From Fluviicola sp. (GTDB lineage Bacteria; Bacteroidota; Bacteroidia; Flavobacteriales_D; Crocinitomicaceae), in NCBI GenBank assembly GCA_002733985.1, contig NVXP01000006.1, positions 7,049 through 39,585 on the forward strand: a DNA stretch of 32,537 nucleotides, read 5' to 3'. Position 1 is the first letter of the stretch; every line of letters starts with the position of its first letter. The notes beneath the pieces are model-generated. The model worked only from the letters and a program-made list of their open reading frames with translations. It was not told where the DNA came from and did no database searches. Made by a program: the position numbers and the translations under genes. Of the stretch, positions 8,948 to 32,537 are shown piece after piece.

Positions 8948-11900
8948 TTATTTTAAAATCGACACGTGCCCTACAAATATTTTTGAATCCGAAGAATGTT
9001 TGATTCCTGCTTCAATTTTCCACGTGAACACTCCGTCCTGAACATTTTCATTCAGTTGTGAATAGTCTCCCTCCCATCCAACTTCCATATCATGCGACTC
9101 AAAAACCAATTCGCCCCATCGGTTGAAGATATAGAGTGTATAGTCATTTTCATCAAAGCCGTCTAAAACAGGTTTGAAGGTTTCATTTACCCCGTTTCCA
9201 TCTGGAGTAAAAGTGTTTGGAACGTAAATCGTGTAATCTTGTGTCACGTACACATATTTCACACGGTCGTCCATGCATCCTTCTTCTGAAAATGCAATGA
9301 GTATTATTTCGTAAGACCCAGGTTCCGAAGTTGGAAATTCGTGGTAAGGCTCAAAAGCATTACTAATACCAGAACCATCTCCAAAATTCCATTCATAGGC
9401 CACAGCTCCAGAGCTTAAATTATCGAATCCGGTCCCAGACATAACGGTTGTCAAGGTCATGTCGAGAATATTGAAATCAGCAATTGGTGGTTCAAATACT
9501 GTTACTTCTGCATTTGCTGTAGATGAACATCCGAAAATATTCGTGCCAGTCACTGTATAAGTTGCGGTTTGAGTTGGGAAAAATTCCTCACTATCAATTA
9601 CACCACCTGACCAAGAATATGATACTGCTCCTTGACCAGATAAAATCACTCCTTCTCCAGGACAAGCTTCCTGATCTTCTGCACTCACAATTGGATTCAA
9701 ATTTACGAGAACCATCATTTGATCAGAAGCAGAACAACCTGTAGAAAATGAATCAAAGACAGTATAAACTCCTGTTCCAATTACTTGATTGAATGGTACA
9801 TTATTAATTACACCACTGTCCCAACTAAGATTTGGCGTCCCGTTAGCGAAAAGTGTAATTGGCGTTCCATCACAAACAGTTTGATCTGGACCTGCATCCA
9901 CAACCGGAAGAGGATTCACTGTTACATTAACTTGATCCGAGTTTGAACAAGCATTTCCACCTGTTCCTATCACTGTATACATTACGGTGCCAACTGCTTG
10001 AACAAAGCTAATTCCATTCGTTACTCCATTGTCCCAAACATAACTTGTTGCTCCAGAACCATTCAAGGTAACTGAAACCCCTTCACAAACCGTTTGATCT
10101 GCACCAGCATTAACTAAAGGAAGTGGATTCACCGTTACATCAACTTGATCCGTATTGGAACAGCCATTTGCATCGGTTCCGACTACCGAATAAGTCGTTG
10201 TTCCAACTGCAGGAACAAAGCTAATCCCATCAATCACACCATTATCCCAAATGTAACCTGTTGCACCAGACCCATTCAAAGTAACTGAAACCCCTTCACA
10301 AACCGTTTGATCTGCACCAGCACTAACTACTGGAAGTGGATTCACTGTTACATCAACTTGATCCGTATTCGAACATCCATTTGCATCAGTCCCGATCACA
10401 GAATAAGTAACCGTTCCAACTACAGGAATAAAACTAATTCCATCAATAACGGCATTGTCCCAAGCATAGCTCGTTGCGCCAGAACCATTCAAAGTAACTG
10501 AAACGCCGTCACAAACTGTTTGATCTGCTCCAGCAACAACTACAGGAAGTGGATTAACCGTTACATCAACTTGATCCGTATTTGAACATCCATTTCCGTC
10601 CGTTCCGATTACTGTGTACGTCACTGTACCAACTGCTTGAACAAAGCTAATTGCATCCGTTACTCCATTGTCCCAAGCATAGCTTGTCGCGCCAGAACCA
10701 TTCAAGGTAACTGAAACGCCATCACAAACCGTTTGATTCGGTCCAGCAACAACTACTGGAAGTGGATTAACTGTTACATCAACTTGATCTGTATTTGAAC
10801 ATCCATTTGCATCGGTTCCGACCACGGAATAAGTCGTCGTTCCAACTGCAGGAATAAATGAAACTCCATCGGTTATTCCGTTGTCCCATACGTAGCTTGT
10901 CGCGCCAGAACCACTTAAGGTAACTGAAACGCCATCACAAACCGTTTGATCTGCTCCAGCAACAACGACTGGAAGTGGATTAACGGTAACATCAGCTTGA
11001 TCCGTATTGGAACAGCCATTTGCGTCAGTTCCGATCACTGAATAAGTAATGGTTCCTACTGCAGGAATAAAACTAACGCCATCAATAACGCCATTGTCCC
11101 AAGCATAGCTTGTTGCACCAGAACCATTCAGGGTAACTGAAACGCCTTCACAAACTGTTTGATCTGCTCCAGCAACAACTACTGGAAGTGGGTTAACCGT
11201 TACATCAACTTGATCTGTATTGGAACATCCATTTCCGTCCGTTCCGATTACTGAATACGTCATGGTTCCTACCGCTTGAACAAAACTAATTCCATCCGTT
11301 ACTCCATTGTCCCAGACATAACTTATCCCTCCAGAACCATTCAAGGTAACTGAAACGCCATCACAAACCGTTTGATCTGCTCCAGCAACAATTACAGGAA
11401 GTGGATTAACCGTTACATCAACTTGATCTGTATTAGAACAGCCATTTGCATCGGTTCCGATTACAGAATAAGTCGTTGTTCCAACTGCAGGGATAAAGCT
11501 AATTCCATCCATCACTCCATTGCTCCAAACATAACTTATCCCACCAGAACCACTCAAGGTAACTGAAACGCCATCACAAACCGCTTGATCTGTTCCAGCG
11601 TCAATTACTGGAAGAGGATTAACCGTAACCTCAACTTGATCAGTATTGGTACATCCATTTGCATCAGTCCCAACCACAGAATACGTAATCGTTCCAACTA
11701 CTTGAATAAATGAAACGCCATCAATAACGCCATTGTCCCAAACATAACTTGTCGCGCCAGAACCATTCAAGGTAACTGAAGCGCCATCACAAACCGCTTG
11801 ATCTGCTCCAGCACTAACAACAGGAAGTGGATCAACCGTTACATCTACTTGATCCGTATTGGAACAGCCATTTCCGTCTGTTCCGATTACTGAGTATGTC

Positions 11901-13510
11901 ACTGTGCCAACTGCAGAAATAAAGCTAATTCCATCGGTTACTCCATTGTCCCAAACATAACTTGTCGCGCCAGAACCATTCAATGTAACAGGAACACCAT
12001 CACAAACCGTTTGATCTATTCCGGCAACAACTAACGGAAGTGCATTAACCGTTACTGGGATCGAAATTGAATCAACACAGCCATCGGCGGATTGCACCCA
12101 TAATTCGACATTGAACACCCCAGCTGTCGCAAAGGTATGATCTGGAATTTGGTAGCTTCCAATAGTTTGAGGCACTGCTCCAATTGGTCCGTTCCCTTCA
12201 GGTGTAATAATTCCATCTCCAAAATCCCATCGATAGTTTACGATTGCTCCTGGCGCTGGAATAGTAGATAGGTCGGTAAACACGATCGACTCACCCGCAC
12301 AAATTTCAGTAATGCTACTAAAGTCAGCCGTTGGTGTAGGATATTCCGCGATTGTAATATCGAGCACGATGGAACATGCGCCACCTTGCGAAGGAGTGAG
12401 TGTACAACTATATGTTCCTCCTGTCGTTACTGTAGTCGACTGAGTTGTTGCTCCATTGCTCCAAAGATAATTCGCAGCACCTGGGGGAGCTGTCAATATT
12501 GTTGATTCTCCCGTACAGATCGTGTTTTGTGAAGCAATAAGTTGAGACATCCCACATGAGGCATCCACATATGCATAGCCATAATGACCAGATAGAGAAC
12601 AATCTCCACTCGTAAATTCAATTGTCACATTCTGACCAATATATGCAGTTAGATTTGCGAAAACTGTTTGCCAATCTTGATAAAGAACAGTTTCTCCACC
12701 TGATATTATTGTTTGAAAATTTGGCGCATTTGCCGCATCCGCAATAACAGAATAATCTCCACATGGCGCACTATTTCCGAATTCATCAAATACTCGAACG
12801 ACAAAATAAGGAAGTTGATTCAATGCATGCCCAGCTGGTGATTCGAAGACAACCGCATAGCTATAGGTAAACATGTAATTAGTGGCATCCACAAGAAAGG
12901 TTTGTTTCATTCGTGCAGCACGAGCTCCAGTACCGGTACCGTTTCCTAATCGGACTGAAAAATTCCCATTCAAAGGATTAACGCGTGGCACTCCAGTAAT
13001 TGGATCAACTCCTCCTCCAAAAATTTGGTGGTATGCCCCAGGTCCGACAGGAAACTCTGCCACGAAACTATAAGGTGCTGAGCCATCAACATTTCCACGA
13101 GTCAAATCCCAACCAGATAAATCACCAGTTTCAAAATCCATATTCACACACGGTCCATCTAGTAGTTTTGGTGATCCTAAAAATGGTTCATCCGGTAAAT
13201 TTTTCAGAGTGGTTTGCGTAGATAGAAGCAATGCTCCATATTCACTTTCAAGATCTGTAAGGGATAAAGAATCTCCTTGAGTCAGTCGTTCTTTGACCGA
13301 TAGAAAGAACGAATCATAGGTTTCGTTTATTTCATCAATTCGATTTAAGTGGATGTAATCGTCAGGCTGTATTCCGAGATCTATTTCGAATGTTCGCAGG
13401 TTATGATTCGAAAAAAAAGTTTCAAGCTGTTGGTGAATTTCTTGTGCATTGCAAATATTCGGCAAGAGGAGTAGCATGAATATCACCCGATTCAATTTGT
13501 TAGTTTTCAT
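8948..13510 (-). CDS. Giant secreted Ig-like/PKD repeat protein with CHU_C (T9SS) C-terminal domain
   Basis: The ATG at 13510 gives a signal peptide (NRVIFMLLLLPNICNAQ) and 1520 residues; the open frame runs upstream to 13537. After an N-terminal helical segment, residues about 120-330 form a jelly-roll-like region (MDFETGDLSGWDL and AYVDASCG). Next come an Ig-like domain (SQNTICTGESTILTAPPGAA), a PKD domain (YRWDFGDG), and then 12 Ig-like repeats (about 491-1338). Ten of these are near-identical 71-residue units, each with an AGADQTVC and a GTDANGCSNTDQ motif. A second PKD domain (YEWNFGDGSG) and the C-terminal domain follow, beginning YVPNTFTPDGNGVNETFKP with FNRWGELVFES. That last domain is the gliding-associated, type B T9SS sorting domain. 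It is most likely a surface adhesin or fibre. It is monocistronic. Confidence 0.92.
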   Translation of the reverse strand: MKTNKLNRVIFMLLLLPNICNAQEIHQQLETFFSNHNLRTFEIDLGIQPDDYIHLNRIDEINETYDSFFLSVKERLTQGDSLSLTDLESEYGALLLSTQTTLKNLPDEPFLGSPKLLDGPCVNMDFETGDLSGWDLTRGNVDGSAPYSFVAEFPVGPGAYHQIFGGGVDPITGVPRVNPLNGNFSVRLGNGTGTGARAARMKQTFLVDATNYMFTYSYAVVFESPAGHALNQLPYFVVRVFDEFGNSAPCGDYSVIADAANAPNFQTIISGGETVLYQDWQTVFANLTAYIGQNVTIEFTSGDCSLSGHYGYAYVDASCGMSQLIASQNTICTGESTILTAPPGAANYLWSNGATTQSTTVTTGGTYSCTLTPSQGGACSIVLDITIAEYPTPTADFSSITEICAGESIVFTDLSTIPAPGAIVNYRWDFGDGIITPEGNGPIGAVPQTIGSYQIPDHTFATAGVFNVELWVQSADGCVDSISIPVTVNALPLVVAGIDQTVCDGVPVTLNGSGATSYVWDNGVTDGISFISAVGTVTYSVIGTDGNGCSNTDQVDVTVDPLPVVSAGADQAVCDGASVTLNGSGATSYVWDNGVIDGVSFIQVVGTITYSVVGTDANGCTNTDQVEVTVNPLPVIDAGTDQAVCDGVSVTLSGSGGISYVWSNGVMDGISFIPAVGTTTYSVIGTDANGCSNTDQVDVTVNPLPVIVAGADQTVCDGVSVTLNGSGGISYVWDNGVTDGISFVQAVGTMTYSVIGTDGNGCSNTDQVDVTVNPLPVVVAGADQTVCEGVSVTLNGSGATSYAWDNGVIDGVSFIPAVGTITYSVIGTDANGCSNTDQADVTVNPLPVVVAGADQTVCDGVSVTLSGSGATSYVWDNGITDGVSFIPAVGTTTYSVVGTDANGCSNTDQVDVTVNPLPVVVAGPNQTVCDGVSVTLNGSGATSYAWDNGVTDAISFVQAVGTVTYTVIGTDGNGCSNTDQVDVTVNPLPVVVAGADQTVCDGVSVTLNGSGATSYAWDNAVIDGISFIPVVGTVTYSVIGTDANGCSNTDQVDVTVNPLPVVSAGADQTVCEGVSVTLNGSGATGYIWDNGVIDGISFVPAVGTTTYSVVGTDANGCSNTDQVDVTVNPLPLVNAGADQTVCEGVSVTLNGSGATSYVWDNGVTNGISFVQAVGTVMYTVIGTGGNACSNSDQVNVTVNPLPVVDAGPDQTVCDGTPITLFANGTPNLSWDSGVINNVPFNQVIGTGVYTVFDSFSTGCSASDQMMVLVNLNPIVSAEDQEACPGEGVILSGQGAVSYSWSGGVIDSEEFFPTQTATYTVTGTNIFGCSSTANAEVTVFEPPIADFNILDMTLTTVMSGTGFDNLSSGAVAYEWNFGDGSGISNAFEPYHEFPTSEPGSYEIILIAFSEEGCMDDRVKYVYVTQDYTIYVPNTFTPDGNGVNETFKPVLDGFDENDYTLYIFNRWGELVFESHDMEVGWEGDYSQLNENVQDGVFTWKIEAGIKHSSDSKIFVGHVSILK
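9911..12040 (-). repeat. Ten tandem 213-bp repeats encoding Ig-like domains
   Basis: Ten in-frame units of 71 codons lie head to tail without gaps, running from 12040 (unit 1) down to 9911 (unit 10). Two degenerate units follow, down to about 9490. Units 1, 4, 7 and 10 share the GNG/GNA variant before the conserved cysteine. Units 3, 6 and 9 share GTTTYS. Units 2, 5 and 8 share VIDG with GTITYS or GTVTYS. The array therefore looks like a three-unit block of about 639 bp that was itself duplicated. Confidence 0.92.
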
Positions 13511-13833
13511 AACGTTATGATTTAAGGGGTACACCAATAAAACGCACCAACCTTTGCTAGGTTGCTATGCATGCACAACTGTTCCTAGCTATGAAACTTG
13601 CCCATTCAGCTAATATTTTACACGTTTTGTCTTTGAAATTATTTCATTCATCTATAAAACGGGAGAATTATAGCGATTAAACCATTGAACATAGAGCACT
13701 TACCAGTGAACATACTAAAGGTACAGGTGAGTATTCTTGCTTAGAATACGATGGTTTTTCTAGAAATTTGACAAATAACCTTGAAATGCAAGAAAACCGT
13801 ATGATCTACACATAATTGCATGTAAATTTGGGC
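13511..13833. other. Divergent intergenic region between the adhesin gene and pabB
   Basis: No gene is supported in these 323 bases. There is a small hairpin at 13556-13589 (GCTAG with CTAGC around a TGCATGCA palindrome) upstream of the adhesin gene. A 7-bp inverted repeat lies at 13731-13749 (GTATTCT/AGAATAC). A near-consensus minus-strand -7 element, TACCTTTA, is at 13723-13716. The perfect plus-strand element TAAATTTG at 13823 serves pabB. The adhesin promoter is not certain. Confidence 0.5.
13823..13830 (+). promoter_or_regulatory. -7 element TAAATTTG immediately before pabB
   Basis: This is an exact TAnnTTTG match ending 3 bases before the ATG at 13834, so transcription would start at or next to the start codon. 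No TTG is found at the usual -33 distance. Confidence 0.5.
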
Positions 13834-23320: not shown

Positions 23321-23392
23321 TACCTGAGATAACTAATTATTTCATTGGACTACCCTCTTTTTGTTAATGTAAAAACACTTAACACAAAAGTT

Positions 23393-25273
23393 ATGCGCCT
23401 AATTTTATTTTTCCTGATCCTTTTTTCCGTACAAAATTCAATTTCTCAACAAACTGAGAAAGAGCAAATTTTGAACACTCTAGATTCCGCGATGCTTTTC
23501 TTTGAAACTGATTTGGAGTTGGCAAAACAAATGACACTTTCAGAAATAGAAAAAGCACGAGCACTTAATTTTAATAAAGGTTTGGGGTATGGTTTCATGA
23601 ACTTGAGTAGTCTTGCATATTATGATGGAAACATGAGTCTTGCTGTTGAATACTGCAATAAAGCAGATACAGTATTCAGGAAAGCAGGCGAGAAAGGATT
23701 AATCGCGAGTAATTTATCAAACCGAGGGGTGCTCTACAGCTACTTGAAATTTTACGATAAGGCAGTTGATGATTATCTAGTGGCCATCGATATCAATAAA
23801 AGCATTGGAAATGAAAATGGTCTCTCACATAACTATGTAAATCTTGGAGGGATATACCTGGATGAAGGTCTGTTAGATAAGGCAATGCATAATTACAAAA
23901 AAGCACTTAGTGTTGACGAAAAACTAGGTGATTCTGTAGAAATTGCGATTGACTATATCAATATTGGAGATGTTTGGGCGGCAAAAAACCAAGTACAAAA
24001 AGCGGACTCGCTATTTATTAAAGGGCTTTCCATATTTGAATCTTTCGGTATCGATTTCGGTATCATTGAATCGAATTATCACTTGGGTAACCTATACCTG
24101 AAAATTGGCGCTTTTCAAAAAGCCCGAGATTATTATACAGTCAGTTACGAACTCTCGAAAAAGGCAAACAAAAATGGCACTCTACTTAAATCAATTGTTG
24201 GAATAGCCAACTCGTATAAAAAGGAAGAGAATTATGCAAAAGGGGTAAATTGGTTTGAAGATGCTATTACAAAAGCTAAAGATGTTCAGGATTCCCTCCA
24301 ACTTCGGGATAACTACTTACAAGCGTCGCTTTGTTATTCGAAGCTAGAAAAGAATGAACTTGCATTTGATGCACTCGAACAATACACATTACTCAACTCA
24401 CTTATTAATCGATCAGAAAAAGATCAATTATTAAAAAGCATTGAACTAAAACATCAATTGTTTGATCAAGGGAAAGAACTGAAGCTCTTAGAACAAAAAA
24501 GTACTATCCAAGAATTTAAAATCAGGGAAACGAACACGACTCTCCTTGTTTCAATAATAGGCCTTCTACTCTTGATTGTAATATCTGTTATTCTATTAAA
24601 ATGGAGGCGAGAGAGATGGAAGCGAGAAAAAATTCAACTACAACAGAAATTATTCAGAAGTCAAGTTGACCCTCATTTCATCTTCAACGTTTTCAACTCA
24701 ATTCAATCCTGTTTAATCAACAAGGACTATAAAGAAGGACGAGTTTACCTTAAAAAATTCGCTCAATTAATGCGAGCCTTTTTAATGCGAGTTAATGAAC
24801 AGTACGCGACCATCGAAGAAGAAACCAATCTAATTCAGTTATACCTTGAAATTGAATCATTCCGATTAGAGGACAAAATGAGTTTTGAAATTTTGGTTGA
24901 TCCAGAAATAGATATCCACTCACAAAAAATACCAACCTTCATTGCTCAAACTTATTTAGAAAATGCTGTTTGGCATGGACTTGCAAGTTTGAAAACTGGA
25001 GGGATTATTAGGGTGAGTATTTCGCAGAAAGAACAAGGAAGTATTTACATGACCATTGAAGACAACGGTATTGGGATTAATCAGTCAAAAAAAGACAAGG
25101 AACTAAACAGTTCTAATCATACTTCTAGAGGAATGAGAATTACCTCTGAGAGAATTCAGAATTTAAATCACAAAACAAGAACTCGATTCAGTGTAAACAT
25201 TACAGATTTGAGTGATGTTTCAAAAGATAAAACAGGAACTCTCGTTAAACTTCAACTACCAATTATTAAGTAA
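23393..25273 (+). CDS. TPR-containing LytS-type sensor histidine kinase
   Basis: The ATG at 23393 gives a signal peptide (MRLILFFLILFSVQNSISQ) and 626 residues; the frame is open from a TTG at 23345. A periplasmic sensor region of TPR repeats follows (SLAVEYCNKADTVFRKAGE, FYDKAVDDYLVAIDINKSIG, LLDKAMHNYKKALSVDEKLG, and further copies). One membrane helix lies at about 382-404 (LLVSIIGLLLLIVISVILL). A short coiled linker leads to the His_kinase domain, with the phospho-acceptor H428 in QVDPHFIFNVFNS. The ATP-binding part has N524 (ENAVWHGL) and DNGIGI. This is the architecture of Bacteroidota LytS-like kinases. The response regulator starts 3 bases after the stop. The signal sensed is unknown, but TPRs suggest a protein or peptide partner in the periplasm. 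Confidence 0.92.
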   Translation: MRLILFFLILFSVQNSISQQTEKEQILNTLDSAMLFFETDLELAKQMTLSEIEKARALNFNKGLGYGFMNLSSLAYYDGNMSLAVEYCNKADTVFRKAGEKGLIASNLSNRGVLYSYLKFYDKAVDDYLVAIDINKSIGNENGLSHNYVNLGGIYLDEGLLDKAMHNYKKALSVDEKLGDSVEIAIDYINIGDVWAAKNQVQKADSLFIKGLSIFESFGIDFGIIESNYHLGNLYLKIGAFQKARDYYTVSYELSKKANKNGTLLKSIVGIANSYKKEENYAKGVNWFEDAITKAKDVQDSLQLRDNYLQASLCYSKLEKNELAFDALEQYTLLNSLINRSEKDQLLKSIELKHQLFDQGKELKLLEQKSTIQEFKIRETNTTLLVSIIGLLLLIVISVILLKWRRERWKREKIQLQQKLFRSQVDPHFIFNVFNSIQSCLINKDYKEGRVYLKKFAQLMRAFLMRVNEQYATIEEETNLIQLYLEIESFRLEDKMSFEILVDPEIDIHSQKIPTFIAQTYLENAVWHGLASLKTGGIIRVSISQKEQGSIYMTIEDNGIGINQSKKDKELNSSNHTSRGMRITSERIQNLNHKTRTRFSVNITDLSDVSKDKTGTLVKLQLPIIK

Positions 25274-25276
25274 GCC

Positions 25277-26020
25277 ATGATTAGAATTTTAGTTATAGAT
25301 GATGAAGTCAAAGCTCGAAAAGCTATTATCAATCTTGTGAATGAATACATCTCTGATTGCGAGATTGTTGGAGAAGCGGGATCTGTAGATGAAGGTATTT
25401 CTAAATTCAAAGAATTGCAACCTGATCTCCTATTGCTTGACATTAAGATCAACACGCAAACGGGGTTTGATTTATTGAACAAAATTGATCACAGTGATGT
25501 CAATGTTATTTTTACAACTGCACACAGTGAATTTGCTCTTAAAGCAATCAAGCATTCTGCTCTAGATTATCTTTTAAAACCAATAGATGAAGAAGAACTA
25601 AAAGCAGCTATTGATAAGGTTGAGATAAAATTAAGAGCGGATGAACAGTTCACTGTTCTTGAAGAGTTGATCAAAGAAAAAAGCAATGGATTTGAAAAAA
25701 TTATTCTCTCAGATGCCAGTGGGTTCAATATTGTCAAACTGAAAGAAGTTATTCGATGCGAAGGTGAAAAGAACTACACCACCTTTCACCTAACAAATGG
25801 TAAGAGAATTACAACAAGTAAATCGCTCATTGAATTCCAAAAACTTTTAGATCCAAATACCTTTATTCGAATTCATAAATCACATCTAATAAATATAAAT
25901 CTAGTGAGAGCCTTTAAAAAAGGAAAGAACAATACTGTTCAGATGGAAGATGGAATAGAAGTCCCCCTTTCTAGAGAAAAAAAGGCCCTTTTCATTGAAA
26001 AACTGAACAGGACACTCTAA
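25277..26020 (+). CDS. LytTR-family response regulator
   Basis: At 247 residues this has a receiver domain (1-120) and a LytTR DNA-binding domain (about 140-245). The receiver has the acidic pair D8-D9, the phosphorylated D55 (LLLLDIKI), the threonine pair in VIFTTAHSE and the lysine in DYLLKPID. The LytTR part shows the usual IRCEGEKNYTTFHLTNGKR, LIEFQKLLDPNTFIRIHKSH and LININLVRAFKKG motifs. It is 3 bases downstream of the kinase gene, so the two form a matched pair. A direct repeat fitting the LytTR operator consensus begins 38 bases after its stop codon, upstream of the beta-helix gene. That points to local targets. Confidence 0.95.
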   Translation: MIRILVIDDEVKARKAIINLVNEYISDCEIVGEAGSVDEGISKFKELQPDLLLLDIKINTQTGFDLLNKIDHSDVNVIFTTAHSEFALKAIKHSALDYLLKPIDEEELKAAIDKVEIKLRADEQFTVLEELIKEKSNGFEKIILSDASGFNIVKLKEVIRCEGEKNYTTFHLTNGKRITTSKSLIEFQKLLDPNTFIRIHKSHLININLVRAFKKGKNNTVQMEDGIEVPLSREKKALFIEKLNRTL

Positions 26021-26057: not shown

Positions 26058-26095
26058 TCCGTTTATCCTTAAAAAGGGACGGTTTATTCAAAGAA
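26058..26095 (+). promoter_or_regulatory. Predicted LytTR operator (direct repeat, 21-bp period) upstream of the beta-helix gene
   Basis: TCCGTTTAT (26058-26066) matches the LytTR half-site consensus [TA][AC][CA]GTTN[AG][TG] at every position. ACGGTTTAT (26079-26087) matches at all but one. The starts are 21 bases apart (12-base gap), the spacing known for this family. A tract AAAAAGG lies between the halves and ATTCAAA closes the element. A related element is present at 30483. Confidence 0.6.
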
Positions 26096-26201
26096 ACGCA
26101 CAACTAGTTCAAATCACGTCATTCGTGTGCGACTAAACCGATTAATAGCTCGAATTTTATTTTCAAATTGATGGAAACACTCATCTAAAAGAAAGAAAAT
26201 C

Positions 26202-28385
26202 ATGCTAAAGAAAACGTGTACTTTTATTGCCCTTTTAATCTTTACTATTGGTCAGGCACAGTCAACTTATTTTGTTGCCAATCAATCTGAAGGAGGTTCT
26301 GACACCAATTTAGGAACGATTACAGCTCCTTTTGCCACTGTAAATCATGCACTTTCCCAAATGATTGGTGGAGATACGTGCTATCTAAGAGGAGGAGTTT
26401 ATCACGAGGAAATTTTGATTGATGGTTTTAATGGAACAAGCACTACTGTCATAACGGCTTATGATAATGAATTTGTTCGCTTTGACGGAACACAAGAGAT
26501 TCAAAATAATTGGACTTTACATTCAGGAAACATCTATAAGACAACATTAACGGCACCTATTTGGCAATTATTTGTTGATAGTTCAAGGATGGTAATGGCG
26601 CGTTGGCCCAATGCCCAATTTAATGATGAATCCGCTTATAGTCATGACACTTGGGCTGAAGGGATTGAACCATCAAGTAACAATGGGTTTGCTTTAGTTG
26701 ATTCTTCTATTCACGATTTAGGAGCAACTGGAATAGATTTTACAGGAGCCATTGGTATCATGAATGTAGGCTCATTTAAAACTTGGACGCAACGTATCCT
26801 TAACCATACACCTGGAACGAATAACTTCGTTTATGACAGTGTACCGAACAACGGCTACAGAACGAAACATCACTATTATTTTTTCGAGGGGAAACTGGAG
26901 TTTCTCGATACTGTTAATGAGTGGTTTTACGATACAACATCCCATGTTATTTATCTTAATATGGAAAATGGTCAAAACCCGAACAACAACTTTATCCAAG
27001 GAAAAGTGCAAGATTACGCCATAACTATGACGAACTCTTCAAACGTCGAAATCTCTGAACTCTATTTCTTCGCAACAACTTTCAAGGCACAAAATTGCAG
27101 CGATATTTCCATTAGAAACAATCACTTCTCTTTCCCTAGTTGTTCTAAGCGTATGTTACAAAACCTCGATAAACCATTAGCAACACAATTTGGAAGCACA
27201 GGATCAGGAAACGAAGTTCACAACAGTATTCTTGAAAAATGTCTTTTTGAACATACAGATGGAGAAGCATTTAGAGTTTACGGAAATGACAATATTATTG
27301 AAAACAACTATTTGCATCACATTGATTACACTGCTTCTGAGTTGGAGTTTTTAATGGTAACGGTGAATATCAAAGGAGACAATAACACCTTTACTAAAAA
27401 CACGATCCATAGTACTGGTGCATCAGCAACAATAGCACCTGGAAACAGCTCTGAAGTTAGCTACAATGATGTTACCCAAACTGGATCGTTACAGTCTGAT
27501 GGCGCTGTTCATCAAGGAACTTCAGCTACAGTTCAGAATTCTAATTTGCATCACAATTGGATTTATCAAACACCGAAGTATGCGCTCAGATTTGATGCTC
27601 CTGGAGGAAGTCCTGGTGCTGCAGGTCAACATGGAAAAATTCATCACAACGTCGTTTGGTCTACCAATGGGATAATGGTTAAAGGAAATCATCACTACAT
27701 CTCACACAATACTTGTTTTTCAAACAATGGAAACGGTCTTATAATCTTAGATGAAGACAGTTCAAATGATAGCACTTACATACAAAACAATATAGCTAGT
27801 AAACTAAGTGCTCACAGACAACATCACATTTCATTATATCCTGTACCAGGTTTCTTTGACCATAATTGGAATGGGTATGACATGTCTCCACTATCAGTAA
27901 GCGATGTTATTGATACAATAACATATATTCCTTTGGCTGGTTCTTCTGTAATTGATGCAGGTATTGTCATTCCGCAAATACCACACACGGTCGTGGGTAC
28001 TTTACCAGACATTGGAGCTTACGAATTTGGAGGAATCGTTTGGACAGCTGGTGCAGATTGGTCGCCTAACTTTTTCCCTTGGAATGATCCGACTATAGTT
28101 CAAGATACATCTAGTGCAAGTTTAAACACAGTAGCAGCATTCAATGATGAATTTTTAGTGTACCCGAATCCTTTTAACGAAACCGTTACGATTGAGAGTA
28201 TCTCAAATAAAACGGAGCAGGCAATTGTATCTATATATTCGAGTACTGGACAACTAATTGGAAAAACGTTGCTTACAAATGGGAAAAAATCAATCGATCT
28301 ACACGATTTAGATCAAGGGGTTTATTGGGTTAACATACAATCCGAATCTGGATCAAATCAACTTAAACCAATTATTAAAAAGTAA
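26202..28385 (+). CDS. Secreted right-handed parallel beta-helix protein with T9SS sorting domain
   Basis: The 727-residue protein has a signal peptide (KKTCTFIALLIFTIGQAQ). The segment TYFVANQSEGGSDTNLGTIT with FATVNHALSQMIGGDTCYLR (about residues 24-64) is the usual entry into a parallel beta-helix of the polysaccharide-lyase/chondroitinase-B type. Residues about 270-560 carry repeated short coils rich in Asn (VEISELYFF, ISIRNNHFS, NIIENNYLHHIDYT, NTFTKNTIHSTGAS). The end (from VYPNPFNETVTIES) is a type A T9SS domain with DQGVYWVNIQ. Such proteins bind or cleave acidic polysaccharides, but I see no certain catalytic pair, so enzymatic activity is not claimed. It is the first gene after the LytTR site, and the next gene starts 2 bases after its stop. 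Confidence 0.88.
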   Translation: MLKKTCTFIALLIFTIGQAQSTYFVANQSEGGSDTNLGTITAPFATVNHALSQMIGGDTCYLRGGVYHEEILIDGFNGTSTTVITAYDNEFVRFDGTQEIQNNWTLHSGNIYKTTLTAPIWQLFVDSSRMVMARWPNAQFNDESAYSHDTWAEGIEPSSNNGFALVDSSIHDLGATGIDFTGAIGIMNVGSFKTWTQRILNHTPGTNNFVYDSVPNNGYRTKHHYYFFEGKLEFLDTVNEWFYDTTSHVIYLNMENGQNPNNNFIQGKVQDYAITMTNSSNVEISELYFFATTFKAQNCSDISIRNNHFSFPSCSKRMLQNLDKPLATQFGSTGSGNEVHNSILEKCLFEHTDGEAFRVYGNDNIIENNYLHHIDYTASELEFLMVTVNIKGDNNTFTKNTIHSTGASATIAPGNSSEVSYNDVTQTGSLQSDGAVHQGTSATVQNSNLHHNWIYQTPKYALRFDAPGGSPGAAGQHGKIHHNVVWSTNGIMVKGNHHYISHNTCFSNNGNGLIILDEDSSNDSTYIQNNIASKLSAHRQHHISLYPVPGFFDHNWNGYDMSPLSVSDVIDTITYIPLAGSSVIDAGIVIPQIPHTVVGTLPDIGAYEFGGIVWTAGADWSPNFFPWNDPTIVQDTSSASLNTVAAFNDEFLVYPNPFNETVTIESISNKTEQAIVSIYSSTGQLIGKTLLTNGKKSIDLHDLDQGVYWVNIQSESGSNQLKPIIKK

Positions 28386-28387
28386 AT

Positions 28388-30304
28388 ATGGAAAAGCACT
28401 ACACAAAGAGCATCGCAATTGCAGGAATATTTCTTTATTCTTCATTCAATGCATTCTCTCAAAGTAACCCTTTAGAATGGGCATCCGCTGCTGGAGGCGC
28501 GGGTAACAATGAAATTTCCAAAGCGGTTACCGTTGATAACAGCGGTAACGTATATACAACTGGTCGATTCTCAGGAACAAGCGATTTTGATCCAAGCTCA
28601 GGAACATTCGACATGACTTCTCAAGGGAACGCAGACGTCTTCATTCAAAAATTAAATAGCAACGGGGATTTAATTTGGTCAAAACAAATTGGTGGTTCAA
28701 CCGGAGCTGATCAAGGGTATGGAATTACTTCAGACGATTCTGGAATCTATATTGGGGGAAGCTTTAAAAGCTCCACAGATTTTGATCCAGGGACAAGTTC
28801 GTTTACCATGACACATTCAGGTAGTGGATTTGATGGATTTATTTTAAAACTTGATTTTGATGGCAATTTCATCTGGGCCAATCAATTTGGAGGAAGTGCA
28901 AATGATGCTCCCAATGAATTAATCATAGACGAAAATGGAGATTTACTCGTAACAGGGTACTTTAATGGTACAGCTGCCTTCGGTTCAACTTCTCTGACGG
29001 CTTCAACAAACGAAGATGCTTTTGTTTTCAAAATGGATAGCAATGGCAATTATGTTTGGGTAAAAGCATTTACTTCAAGCAGTTCGGCAAGAGGTAAAGG
29101 TATTACATCTGATTCTGAACTTGGAGTATATATTACAGGTTGGTTCGAGGGAAGTATTGATTTAGACCCTAGTGCTAATAGTTCGATGAATACATCTGTT
29201 GGAGATAGAGATGCATTCATGTGTAAACTAGATTCAAGTGGAACTTTTATTTGGGGACAGAGCATTGGCTCTATAGGTCTTGACCAAGGAAAATCACTAA
29301 GTGTAAATTCTCTAGGGGATATATACTTAATTGGTCAATTTAGCGAAACGGCAGACTTCGACAGCAATGGTAACTCCCTAAATCTTATATCTGATGGGGC
29401 TACTGATTGTTTCGTAAAAAAAATGAACCCAAATGGCACAATGATATGGGCCAAAAGATTTGGTGGTTTAAATGGCGATTTTGCTACTAAAATCATTGTT
29501 GATCCTAATGACGATATTTATTTGTCCGGAGTGTTTCAAGGAAGTGTTGACTTCGACTTAGGTACAAGTGAATTCATTTTATCATCAAATGGCGTTCAGG
29601 ATTTCTTTATAGAAAAATTGAATATTGATGGAGATTTAATCTGGGTAGAAGCTATTGGGTCTACAGGAAATGATCAATCATTTGATGCTGTTTTGGATGC
29701 AATCGGTAACATCTATGTTTGTGGTCACTATGAAGCAACTGTAGACTTCGATTTCGGAATTAATACGGACACATATACTTCAAATGGAGAACGCGATATT
29801 TTTGTACTTAAACTGGAAGCTTCTTGCATTCAGCCTGACAATACAGTAACATCAAATGGGAACACCATTTCAGCTGTAGTGAATAACGTGAATTATCAAT
29901 GGATTAACTGCCTTGATAACTCAGCGATAGTTGGAGAAACAGGACAATCATTTACAGCAACACAAAATGGTTCTTACGCGGTTGTTGTTGAAGACAACAA
30001 CTGTTCGGATACCTCTGAATGTGTTTCGATCAACAGCATTGGTATGAAAGAGTTTTCATCTAACCTCTTTTCTATATTCCCTAATCCAACCAATGATTTC
30101 TTGAACATTAATGTAATTGGACAAACTACGCCATTTAAACTTGAGATCATTTCTCTTTCGGGAGCTCAGATTTTTCAACAAGTCTTTAACAATGGAATCA
30201 CAAACCCGATTGATGTAAGAAACTTTACAGAGGGAATGTATTTTATTAAAATGACAACAAGTAACGGTAACAACAGTATTAAAAAGTTTCAGATAGTAGA
30301 GTAG
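28388..30304 (+). CDS. Secreted SBBP seven-bladed propeller protein with T9SS sorting domain
   Basis: The 638-residue protein has a signal peptide (SIAIAGIFLYSSFNAFSQ). Seven repeats of about 55-60 residues follow, each built on a core like GNVYTTGRFSGTSDFD. The other six cores are GIYIGGSFKSSTDFD, DLLVTGYFNGTAAFG, GVYITGWFEGSIDLD, DIYLIGQFSETADFD, DIYLSGVFQGSVDFD and NIYVCGHYEATVDFD. Seven SBBP units predict one closed beta-propeller. An Ig-like spacer (NYQWINCLDN, SFTATQNGSYAVVVEDNNC) leads to a type A T9SS domain (IFPNPTNDFLNINVIG, EGMYFIKMTTSNG). It is co-transcribed with the beta-helix gene and ends at a strong terminator. It may be a surface ligand-binding protein; no catalytic residues are evident. 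Confidence 0.9.
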   Translation: MEKHYTKSIAIAGIFLYSSFNAFSQSNPLEWASAAGGAGNNEISKAVTVDNSGNVYTTGRFSGTSDFDPSSGTFDMTSQGNADVFIQKLNSNGDLIWSKQIGGSTGADQGYGITSDDSGIYIGGSFKSSTDFDPGTSSFTMTHSGSGFDGFILKLDFDGNFIWANQFGGSANDAPNELIIDENGDLLVTGYFNGTAAFGSTSLTASTNEDAFVFKMDSNGNYVWVKAFTSSSSARGKGITSDSELGVYITGWFEGSIDLDPSANSSMNTSVGDRDAFMCKLDSSGTFIWGQSIGSIGLDQGKSLSVNSLGDIYLIGQFSETADFDSNGNSLNLISDGATDCFVKKMNPNGTMIWAKRFGGLNGDFATKIIVDPNDDIYLSGVFQGSVDFDLGTSEFILSSNGVQDFFIEKLNIDGDLIWVEAIGSTGNDQSFDAVLDAIGNIYVCGHYEATVDFDFGINTDTYTSNGERDIFVLKLEASCIQPDNTVTSNGNTISAVVNNVNYQWINCLDNSAIVGETGQSFTATQNGSYAVVVEDNNCSDTSECVSINSIGMKEFSSNLFSIFPNPTNDFLNINVIGQTTPFKLEIISLSGAQIFQQVFNNGITNPIDVRNFTEGMYFIKMTTSNGNNSIKKFQIVE

Positions 30305-30400: not shown

Positions 30401-30435
30401 AGGGCAGTCCATTATTGGACTGCCCTTTCTCTTTT
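30401..30435 (+). terminator. Rho-independent terminator after the SBBP gene
   Basis: AGGGCAGTCCA (30401-30411) pairs perfectly with TGGACTGCCCT (30416-30426) around a TTAT loop and is followed by TTCTCTTTT. It ends the beta-helix/SBBP transcript, so the gene at 30593 needs its own promoter. Confidence 0.92.
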
Positions 30436-30482
30436 AGGTATTCTTTCAATTTATACGCAATCCTGTTAATCGTCAAAATGAC

Positions 30483-30520
30483 CCCGTTCGTTCGAAAAAA
30501 GGTGTCATTCATTCAAATAA
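30483..30520 (+). promoter_or_regulatory. LytTR-like element upstream of the 30593 gene, related to the 26058 site
   Basis: Aligned without gaps, this 38-bp stretch is identical to 26058-26095 at 25 positions, including CCGTT, AAAAAGG and ATTCAAA at the same distances. CCCGTTCGT fits the LytTR half-site at all but the first base. The second half (GTCATTCAT) is degenerate. Inside it, TTCGTTCGAA (30487) and TTCATTCAAA (30508) are 21 bases apart. It lies 72 bases before the ATG at 30593. Confidence 0.5.
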
Positions 30521-30592
30521 CGAATACTTAACCTCTCACTTACAGTAGTTTACCGAACTTTAACATCAAATAAATGCTAACACATAGTACTC

Positions 30593-32537
30593 ATGCGAAA
30601 CATTCTACTCCTAATGTATACGTGCCTAGTTACCAATTTAACTTTGGGACAATTAGACGATACACATTACCTCCCTCCGATAAAAACGTCTAGTACATCG
30701 ACTGTCCTTAATCTACATAGAATATACTTCTCGACCCCTGTGTCGACTCCATTCGATGTATATATTTATCAAGGGACGAACACTACTCCAATTGCCACAA
30801 TTTCTGGTCTTGTTATTGGCGCCCCTAAAACATTTGATCCTGGGAATGGACAAAACAACATGACCAATATTAATAACTCGAACACTGGGGTCGTTTTAAC
30901 AAATGCTGGACTTAGGTTCGTATCTTCTGGTGGAGAAAAGTTCTTTGTAAACTACAGAGGACGTTCAAACCCACAAGGAGCATCGCTTACATGTAAGGGA
31001 AAATCCGCATTAGGAAATGAGTTCAGATGGGGAGGGATTTGGAATCGATCAGAAAAAATTGGTCAGTGCAATTCTATATTAGGAATAATGTCCGCCCAAG
31101 ATGGAAATGTGATTACCATAAGTGATTATGACCCTAACTGTGAATTTAGACTTGGTTCAAATGCTGGTGGAATTACATCCAATAGTATTTCAATTACTCT
31201 AAATGCAGGTGAAACATTCGTTTTGGAAGCTGTGACAGAACAACACATAGCAAACAAAGATGGTTTTCTAGGTGCTAAAATAATCTCTACAGGTCCAATC
31301 GCCATTGTTAATGGTGGGTTAAATTTCGGTGTTGTACCTGGAACAGAATCAAGAGATGCTGGTATTGATCAACCCGTTCCAACATCCCTATTGGGAAGAG
31401 AACATATTTTTATCAGGGGAAATGGTACCGATCAATTAGAATTCCCGGCTATTATTGGTGTCCAAAACAATACAGACATATATGCTGCAGGGAATTATAT
31501 TGCAACAATCAACGATGGTGAGTATTTAGAAATACCTGCCTCCAATTATTCGGGAACATCCGCAGGATCTAATATGTATGTTGAATCCTCCAAGGAAATT
31601 TATGCTTATCAATGTGTAGCAGCAACATCATCCAGGAATACATTAGGGATGAACTACATTGCACCTGTAAATTGTTTACTTCCAAATTCTGTATGTGAAA
31701 TCGCTTACATTGATAGTTTGGCAGATCTCAGCAACCAAATGGCCAGTGTAACGATAGTTGCGGCCTCTACAGAGCCAGATTCAGATTTGATAATCACGCA
31801 CGGTGGGGGAACCATCACAGGACTATCTTCAACTCCTGTACCAGGTACATCCGACTGGAAAACATTTTATGTAACAGGTCTAACTGGCCAAGTTAAAGTA
31901 GATTTCACCGCCCCTGTTGCAGTTGGATATTTTTTGAGTCATGGAACAAATGCTGGACTTGCTGCATATTTCTCTGGCTTCGACACTGCTCCAGATATTA
32001 CGATCACTGAAACTGGAACAGGATGTTATACAGGAGCGACCTTTAATGAAGTCTCTGGTTCATTCTCAAGTTATCAATGGTACCTCGATGGCCAACCAGT
32101 TTCTGCAGCAACAACACCAACCTATATCCCTGGGGATATTGGATATATTACTCTTGAAGTAAGTGACGGACTGTGTACGTATAATTCTAGTTCATTTAGT
32201 TTGTTTCACTGTAATCCCGAGGTACAAATATTAAAAACGGATAATGTTGACCCAGTACTAGTTGGAGATACTGTCATATTTACGATTACAGCACAAAATT
32301 TGGGTATCGATACAATTACAGGGCTCGTTGTTGAAGAGTCGATTCCCTTCGGATTTACCTTACTGAGCGTTACTGTTTCAAGTGGAACTTGGGTAAATCC
32401 AGATTGGATCGTTGGAACTTTAACCCCAGGAGAAATTCAAGAAATGACTGTAACAGTAACCGCTGATCTTGGAACGACAGGCCAAACTCTAATAAATATT
32501 GTAGAAAACACCCAAGATCAAACCGACACGAATGTTG
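30593..32537 (+). CDS. Large secreted protein with IgGFc-binding-like region and DUF11 domain (3' end outside window)
   Basis: The frame from the ATG at 30593 is open to the window edge: 648 complete codons and no stop. A signal peptide (NILLLMYTCLVTNLTLGQ) is followed by about 400 residues that resemble the IgGFc-binding N-terminal domain seen in Bacteroidota surface proteins (FVNYRGRSNPQGASLTCKGK, ALGNEFRWGG, NAGETFVLEAV, KIISTGPIAIVNGG). Next comes an Ig-like spacer (SYQWYLDGQPVSAATTPTY). The last 110 residues form a DUF11 domain (VQILKTDNVDPVLVGDTVIF, EESIPFGFTLLSV). In relatives such proteins end in a T9SS domain, which would lie beyond the edge. The gene has a LytTR-like element upstream and follows a terminator. 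The IgGFc name is by resemblance; no antibody binding is implied. Confidence 0.85.
   Translation, partial: MRNILLLMYTCLVTNLTLGQLDDTHYLPPIKTSSTSTVLNLHRIYFSTPVSTPFDVYIYQGTNTTPIATISGLVIGAPKTFDPGNGQNNMTNINNSNTGVVLTNAGLRFVSSGGEKFFVNYRGRSNPQGASLTCKGKSALGNEFRWGGIWNRSEKIGQCNSILGIMSAQDGNVITISDYDPNCEFRLGSNAGGITSNSISITLNAGETFVLEAVTEQHIANKDGFLGAKIISTGPIAIVNGGLNFGVVPGTESRDAGIDQPVPTSLLGREHIFIRGNGTDQLEFPAIIGVQNNTDIYAAGNYIATINDGEYLEIPASNYSGTSAGSNMYVESSKEIYAYQCVAATSSRNTLGMNYIAPVNCLLPNSVCEIAYIDSLADLSNQMASVTIVAASTEPDSDLIITHGGGTITGLSSTPVPGTSDWKTFYVTGLTGQVKVDFTAPVAVGYFLSHGTNAGLAAYFSGFDTAPDITITETGTGCYTGATFNEVSGSFSSYQWYLDGQPVSAATTPTYIPGDIGYITLEVSDGLCTYNSSSFSLFHCNPEVQILKTDNVDPVLVGDTVIFTITAQNLGIDTITGLVVEESIPFGFTLLSVTVSSGTWVNPDWIVGTLTPGEIQEMTVTVTADLGTTGQTLINIVENTQDQTDTNV

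Follow-up and report, generated by a model that had tools for sequence, protein, structure and literature searches.

Candidate LytTR sites with a 21-bp pitch ahead of T9SS surface-protein genes, and a putative LytTR-linked structured RNA, in Crocinitomicaceae

Introduction

LytTR response regulators recognize the consensus [TA][AC][CA]GTTN[AG][TG]. A LytTR regulator drives a regulatory RNA in the agr system, where RNAIII is made from P3, and VirR also drives VR-RNA. LytTR sites are described in PMC4847170 as two repeats of 9–11 nt with 11–13 nt spacers, and the E. coli YpdB site on PyhjX as a direct repeat of GGCATTTCAT. Similarly, the AgrA dimer occupies a pair of direct repeats ahead of P2 and P3 (PMC4227749), and the VirR boxes of the C. 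perfringens VirS/VirR system are paired imperfect direct repeats ahead of secreted-toxin genes (PMC2838878).

Here we analyse two similar intergenic elements, a and b, of a Fluviicola sp. contig; the window is the whole stretch of 32,537 nucleotides that was analysed. The elements resemble the YpdB and AgrA sites in being ~10-bp direct repeats upstream of a (here putative) promoter. They differ in their half-site, CNGTTCRTTCNAAA, in a conserved A-tract in the spacer and often in a third half-site, and they are accompanied by a candidate Bacteroidota -7 box and by T9SS cargo genes as putative targets. Paired direct repeats before secreted-protein genes are likewise common to VirS/VirR, but the latter is a Firmicute system with another promoter type and other targets. 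A search of the open-access literature (titles and abstract openings) found no paper on LytTR sites of this kind or a LytTR motif in Bacteroidota, nor on the structured RNA presented below.

Results

Two intergenic elements are built from half-sites 21 bp apart

The elements and their parts are as follows.
30483 to 30520, plus strand: element a, with half-sites CCGTTCGTTCGAA (30484) and TCATTCATTCAAA (30505), 21 bp apart, and a central A-tract
30463 to 30475, plus strand: weaker third half-site of element a, upstream, CTGTTAATCGTCA, 18.1 bits when paired with 30484
26058 to 26095, plus strand: element b, with half-sites CCGTTTATCCTTA (26059) and CGGTTTATTCAAA (26080), 21 bp apart
26101 to 26113, plus strand: weaker third half-site of element b, CAACTAGTTCAAA, in the 21-bp register

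The ungapped 25/38 identity between elements a and b that an earlier note had claimed was confirmed, as were the AAAAAGG and ATTCAAA common to both copies. The "internal 21-bp direct repeat" of that note stands as a 21-bp period, the starts of the half-sites being 30484/30505 and 26059/26080; the repeated unit itself is a half-site of ~13 bp. Each element thus has two strong half-sites and one weaker third in the same 21-bp register (starting at 30463 in a and 26101 in b). Similarity between a and b is limited to the half-sites and the A-tract, and the flanks share little. By itself the pair is just mildly surprising: when both intergenic regions were shuffled with dinucleotides preserved, 5 of 500 shuffles did equally well, a ~1% event for the pair alone.

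With a 21-bp period and half-sites of ~10 bp, the element has the spacing by which LytTR sites are defined. We therefore reject the proposal that it is longer than a standard LytTR site: two ~10-bp repeats with 11–12 bp between them fall in the standard range, and the 21-bp period is the ordinary LytTR one. Compared with the LytTR consensus, the two half-sites of element b have 0 and 1 mismatches, whereas in element a one half-site alone comes within 1 mismatch. A paralogous element on contig C101 has 0 and 0; in an element of another genus (genome G200, see below) the first repeat has 1 mismatch and the second 0, spaced there by 22 rather than 21 bp.

A sensor kinase/LytTR pair, T9SS genes and a terminator surround the elements

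The annotated surroundings are listed below.
23345 to 25273, plus strand: TPR sensor histidine kinase (PF06580)
25277 to 26020, plus strand: LytTR response regulator (PF00072 and PF04397), with element b directly 3' of the gene
26202 to 28385, plus strand: T9SS type A protein, first gene after element b
28388 to 30304, plus strand: SBBP beta-propeller T9SS type A protein, second gene after element b
30401 to 30426, plus strand: intrinsic-terminator hairpin between the upstream operon and element a, followed by TTTCTCTTTT
30593 to 32537, extending past the window, plus strand: IgGFc-binding/DUF11 T9SS type A protein after element a, with its C-terminal domain outside the window

The terminator said to precede element a is real: its hairpin folds at -22 kcal/mol (z -5.2), which none of 200 shuffles equalled. 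The T9SS signals claimed for the genes after both copies also hold, with a type A sorting domain in 26202, 28388 and the third gene. For the third gene (30593), no sorting domain was found within the part in the window; its complete 840-aa protein, read from the contig (L084:1642-4164), has one. The TIGR04183 C-terminal sorting domain scores above cut-off in 26202, 28388, L084:1642-4164 and the T9SS genes of C101 and G200, the G200 gene lying under the Pfam cut-off (22.6 vs 27). Homologs of 28388-30304 stand directly after the element in C101 and G200.

The element recurs at a paralogous locus of the same genome

When a pattern made from both copies was run over the 5.09-Mb source genome with up to three mismatches, three matches were obtained, against 0 for reversed-pattern controls: elements a and b and C101:2547-2580, in which CAGTTCATTCAAA occurs twice as a perfect repeat at a 21-bp pitch. 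C101 is a paralogous locus, its kinase/LytTR pair and its T9SS beta-propeller gene both being paralogs of those in the window, in the order kinase, LytTR (53% identical), element, SBBP gene; the SBBP protein is 41% identical to 28388-30304. A looser half-site pattern gave 17 matches (2 in controls), 13 of them inside ORFs. The 4 intergenic ones were elements a, b and C101 plus the overlapping third half-site of element b, so that intergenic matches in this genome cluster at LytTR/T9SS loci as the earlier note had predicted. Nine LytTR proteins are encoded in the genome (E≤1e-40); at the seven other LytTR neighbourhoods no comparable intergenic pair was found, the best reaching 13.0 bits beside a LytTR gene on contig C24. 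With 3 intergenic places in the source genome, a wide regulon is not supported; the putative regulon is small and local.

The element adjoins an orthologous LytTR gene in another genus

G200, a genome of another genus in the same family, carries a kinase gene, a LytTR gene (55%), CGTTTTGTTCGAAAAAGAGTACAGTTCGTTCAAA and an SBBP gene in that order. The half-site matrix had been built from the copies of the source genome before the G200 sequence was looked at. It gave the G200 element 25.7 bits, the sole pair above 13 in 18 kb, where the background maximum among 1,524,228 positions was 23.2; that top-scoring background position is itself a promoter array of the RNA described below. The G200 element matches an element of the source genome at 25 of 34 bases, an identity that none of 1000 shuffled versions of the G200 intergenic region equalled (best shuffle, 23). 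Across the four elements (a, b, C101, G200), 17 of 34 positions are invariant, the A-tract included, and the SBBP proteins are 41–52% identical to one another.

Conservation beside the LytTR gene in relatives, as proposed earlier, is thus borne out in one other genus. The element directly adjoins a LytTR gene in element b, C101 and G200; the 18 kb of G200 sequence covered showed no counterpart of element a. Repeat architecture and genomic placement are direct observations, as is the presence of the element beside an orthologous regulator and target in another genus. The suggestion of a regulon motif consequently stands in that the motif lies beside a LytTR gene and ahead of secreted-protein genes, in G200 as well, and falls in its extra-long site.

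Candidate promoters downstream of the elements

One candidate promoter box was noted downstream of element a.
30546 to 30553, plus strand: candidate -7 box TAGTTTAC; the R base of element a's proximal half-site is 39 bp away

The flavobacterial -7 box is TAnnTTTG according to PMC9723704. TAnnTT boxes lie at +39 in element a, +41 in C101 and +39 in G200, and an ATG follows 82–88 bp from the proximal half-site in all three, the ATGs of C101 and G200 having been picked by hand downstream of the longest-ORF starts. Element b breaks this spacing: whichever half-site is taken as the origin, it lacks a TAnnTT around +39, and the distance to its ATG is 119 bp (98 bp counted from the weak third half-site). 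The spacing common to element a, C101 and G200 lends weak support to a shared promoter arrangement, because a stretch of this length would contain about one TAnnTT by chance.

Window-type LytTR regulators are rare in relatives

LytTR proteins matching that of the window at E≤1e-60 were found in 3 of 240 family genomes, namely the source genome, G200 (55%) and G208 (45%), the G208 match being a regulator of the type linked to the RNA (sRNA-type) and not window-type. Across the phylum, with few candidates scored per genome, 1 of 395 genomes had such a protein, the source genome alone. Because the window-type LytTR is so rare, conservation of the element amounts to one other genus and one paralog.

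Pattern scans in the family gave no support for a wide regulon. With up to two mismatches, 54 matches were found in the 240 family genomes (22 with reversed-pattern controls). Those with 0 mismatches were elements a, b and G200 alone, all three known when the pattern was designed, and three had 1 mismatch (in G322, G106 and G369). Among 27 loci checked, 15 lay inside ORFs and 12 outside, G200 and element b included in the 12. An earlier scan of 60 relatives gave 37 matches in 25 genomes (8 in controls), with 22 of 28 loci inside ORFs and 6 outside.

A putative conserved structured RNA follows a related LytTR gene

The C24 LytTR of the source genome, which has an ortholog genus-wide, is 41% identical to the LytTR of the window. 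The intergenic region 3' of the C24-type gene carries as many as three half-sites (..ATTCATTCAAA / TRTTCA / ATRTTCAT), beyond which lies a conserved block in which no shared open reading frame was found. Alignment and folding of this block suggest an RNA of ~180 nt (range ~140–200 nt) in which the closing stem covaries, the core is near-invariant and a T-run forms the end. In the source genome it lies at L077:3996-4182 (C24:23995-24181), and others are at loci L086-L130. The source-genome copy folds at z -3.0, equalled by 2 of 200 shuffles. At the gathering score Rfam 15 gave 0 matches for the RNA over six sources, and in E-value mode 4 matches, all far under their gathering scores.

A covariance model found the RNA once each in 31 of 34 genomes of the genus and, under strict filters, in 39 of 199 genomes of the order, all of this family and spread over 8 of 62 genera; one genome (G183) had two matches. 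An exact-core scan of named genomes returned 83 stretches, most of them from MAGs of Crocinitomicaceae/Flavobacteriales (Fluviicola sp. and Taishania pollutisoli among them) and some under other MAG labels; identity of the core among these is by construction, since the scan used the exact core. Together with the source genome's own L100 they make 84 core matches, of which 52 were taken into alignment A5. In these 52 sequences two-sided compensated changes were seen at 17 of 35 pairs, 95.1% of cells pair, 0 of 500 shuffles reach any of five measures and slid controls give 5–8 compensated pairs, although the alignment leans toward the model because it was fitted to it. The core helices hardly vary. 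The idea that the core UUUCAUUUUCUAG acts as an antisense seed for ...CTAGAAAATGAAA at gene starts was unsupported: CTAGAAAATGAAA has 64 exact matches in the 34 genus genomes, and once the 28 that fall on the RNA gene are set aside, 36 remain, vs 16 in controls.

The RNA co-occurs with one LytTR type

Of the 199 order genomes, 54 encode a C24-type LytTR protein (E≤1e-75), and these 54 include every one of the 39 RNA-positive genomes, counts that are inflated by relatedness and depend on a strictly filtered RNA search. Fifteen genomes are thus LytTR-positive and RNA-negative. A shortened RNA with the core CCTGCTTGGAGAGGCAGTTTTCTAGTTT alone and two half-sites occurs 3' of the LytTR gene at L313:1824-1886 and L321:1899-1956 (18.5 and 19.0 bits); in the other 13 of the 15, no such core was seen by eye in the 360 nt after the LytTR gene. 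The best model match in RNA-negative genomes (L310, 20.1 bits) is on the wrong strand at 20% GC. By eye, L311 (G100) has, 3' of its LytTR gene, a GTCAGGTTAA...TTAACCTGAC stem and T-run without the conserved core, perhaps a diverged relative of the RNA.

In 17 of the 39 genomes the RNA and the LytTR gene are no more than 2 kb apart; in the other 22 the RNA lies elsewhere. Upstream, 77 of the 84 core matches have a GAAATAA-like start box and enough sequence; 5 lack the box and 2 the upstream sequence. In named loci (n = 76), an exact 21-bp RTTCA pair was found at 34 of 43 promoters with a LytTR gene in the locus and at 31 of 33 without, 9 of these 33 having too little upstream sequence to be sure; the array therefore stays with the RNA away from the LytTR gene. 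RTTCA pairs at 20 or 22 bp occur in 0 of 76 promoters, and at 18 or 19 bp in a few.

Set A3 comprised 42 of 48 non-redundant arrays, with L100 withheld as a test and L150, L163, L170, L190 and L206 omitted as weaker. Model R2, built from RNA promoters of other genomes, recovers the RNA array of the source genome at 38 bits. Elements a, b and C101 are absent from its 35 matches and their half-sites differ, so a specificity shared with the sRNA-type arrays was rejected. In G200 neither a C24-type LytTR nor the RNA was found in those searches, and the T9SS and RNA branches are therefore separable.

Some further sRNA-type arrays were observed. Intergenic ones at C21:2359-2397 (L234) and C159:3164-3212 (L235) of the source genome score 21.3 and 19.0 bits and are possible extra targets of the C24 LytTR. 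Inside the window, a weak one (16 bits, E 0.058 per genome) occupies 13686-13735 on the minus strand; it is intergenic, upstream of a giant surface-protein gene, with no -7 box seen by eye at the usual distance. That gene (8948-13537, minus strand) encodes 1529 aa with many near-identical repeats of the type ADQTVCDGVSVTLNGSG...

Discussion

We put at roughly 80% the probability that both copies are LytTR-type response-regulator sites, most likely for the protein encoded at 25277-26020, driven by its kinase and activating the promoters of the T9SS genes downstream. The TPR histidine kinase (23345-25273) would phosphorylate this regulator, which presumably binds the elements: a LytTR dimer would occupy two half-sites on one face of the DNA, 21 bp being two helical turns, and the weaker third half-site may extend the array. 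Bound LytTR would then activate the promoter immediately downstream, element b driving the operon 26202-30304 and element a, placed after its own terminator, driving gene 30593. We infer the binding, the activation, the promoter box and the action of 25277-26020, rather than the C101 paralog, at element a.

That last assignment meets the most serious competitor, an unlikely one in our judgement, in which the elements are indeed sites for LytTR proteins but element a responds chiefly to a LytTR other than the adjacent one, through the C101 paralog or cross-talk. The source genome has nine LytTR proteins to choose from, and over 34 bases element a is identical to b at 23, to C101 at 23 and to G200 at 24; because these values are nearly equal, the sequence fails to single out the local copy as its partner. 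Element a nevertheless belongs to the same cluster as 25277-26020, though at a distance of 4.4 kb from that gene, and none of the seven other LytTR neighbourhoods has a comparable pair, the 13.0 bits at C24 being their best.

Far less probable is that a duplicated intergenic segment or small repeat left the two copies behind, with no regulatory role. Their occurrence inside 4.4 kb would fit, as would a pairwise identity that is just a 1% event, but a duplication does not sit well with a likeness restricted to half-sites and A-tract with little in the flanks, nor with the same array, at the 21-bp pitch and in the same place, in another genus. Chance likeness of two AT-rich intergenic stretches, which the 5 shuffles in 500 reaching 25/38 might be taken to favour, is hardly credible when 0 of 1,524,228 background positions equal the score of the G200 element and the intergenic matches in the source genome are at LytTR/T9SS loci exclusively. 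LytTR-type sites for the local regulator are thus the reading we prefer.

The C24-type branch can be compared with agr P3–RNAIII. As there, a LytTR regulator of the sRNA type adjoins or co-occurs with a structured RNA, here preceded by LytTR-like direct repeats; the RNA differs in having no Rfam match and its promoter in having up to three half-sites. We consider it fairly probable that bacteria of the Crocinitomicaceae type possess a LytTR network in which the commonest branch is a LytTR that drives a hitherto undescribed regulatory RNA, structured by a rod-like closing stem and with the near-invariant core CUGCUUGGAGAGGCAGUUUCAUUUUCUAGUUUGAU. Its promoter would hold as many as three half-sites at a 21-bp pitch, in the manner of agr–RNAIII but in Bacteroidota. 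The elements of the window would then be the sites of a branch of its own, a less common one, acting as a switch for T9SS surface proteins.

The elements provide a concrete predicted LytTR site in Bacteroidota, of two half-sites 21 bp apart with an A-tract spacer, and tie kinase/LytTR pairs to T9SS surface proteins. The 21-bp pitch also led to a putative structured RNA in eight genera of the family among the genomes sampled, tied to one LytTR by co-occurrence and promoter architecture. If expressed, this would be a regulatory RNA of Bacteroidota under LytTR control.
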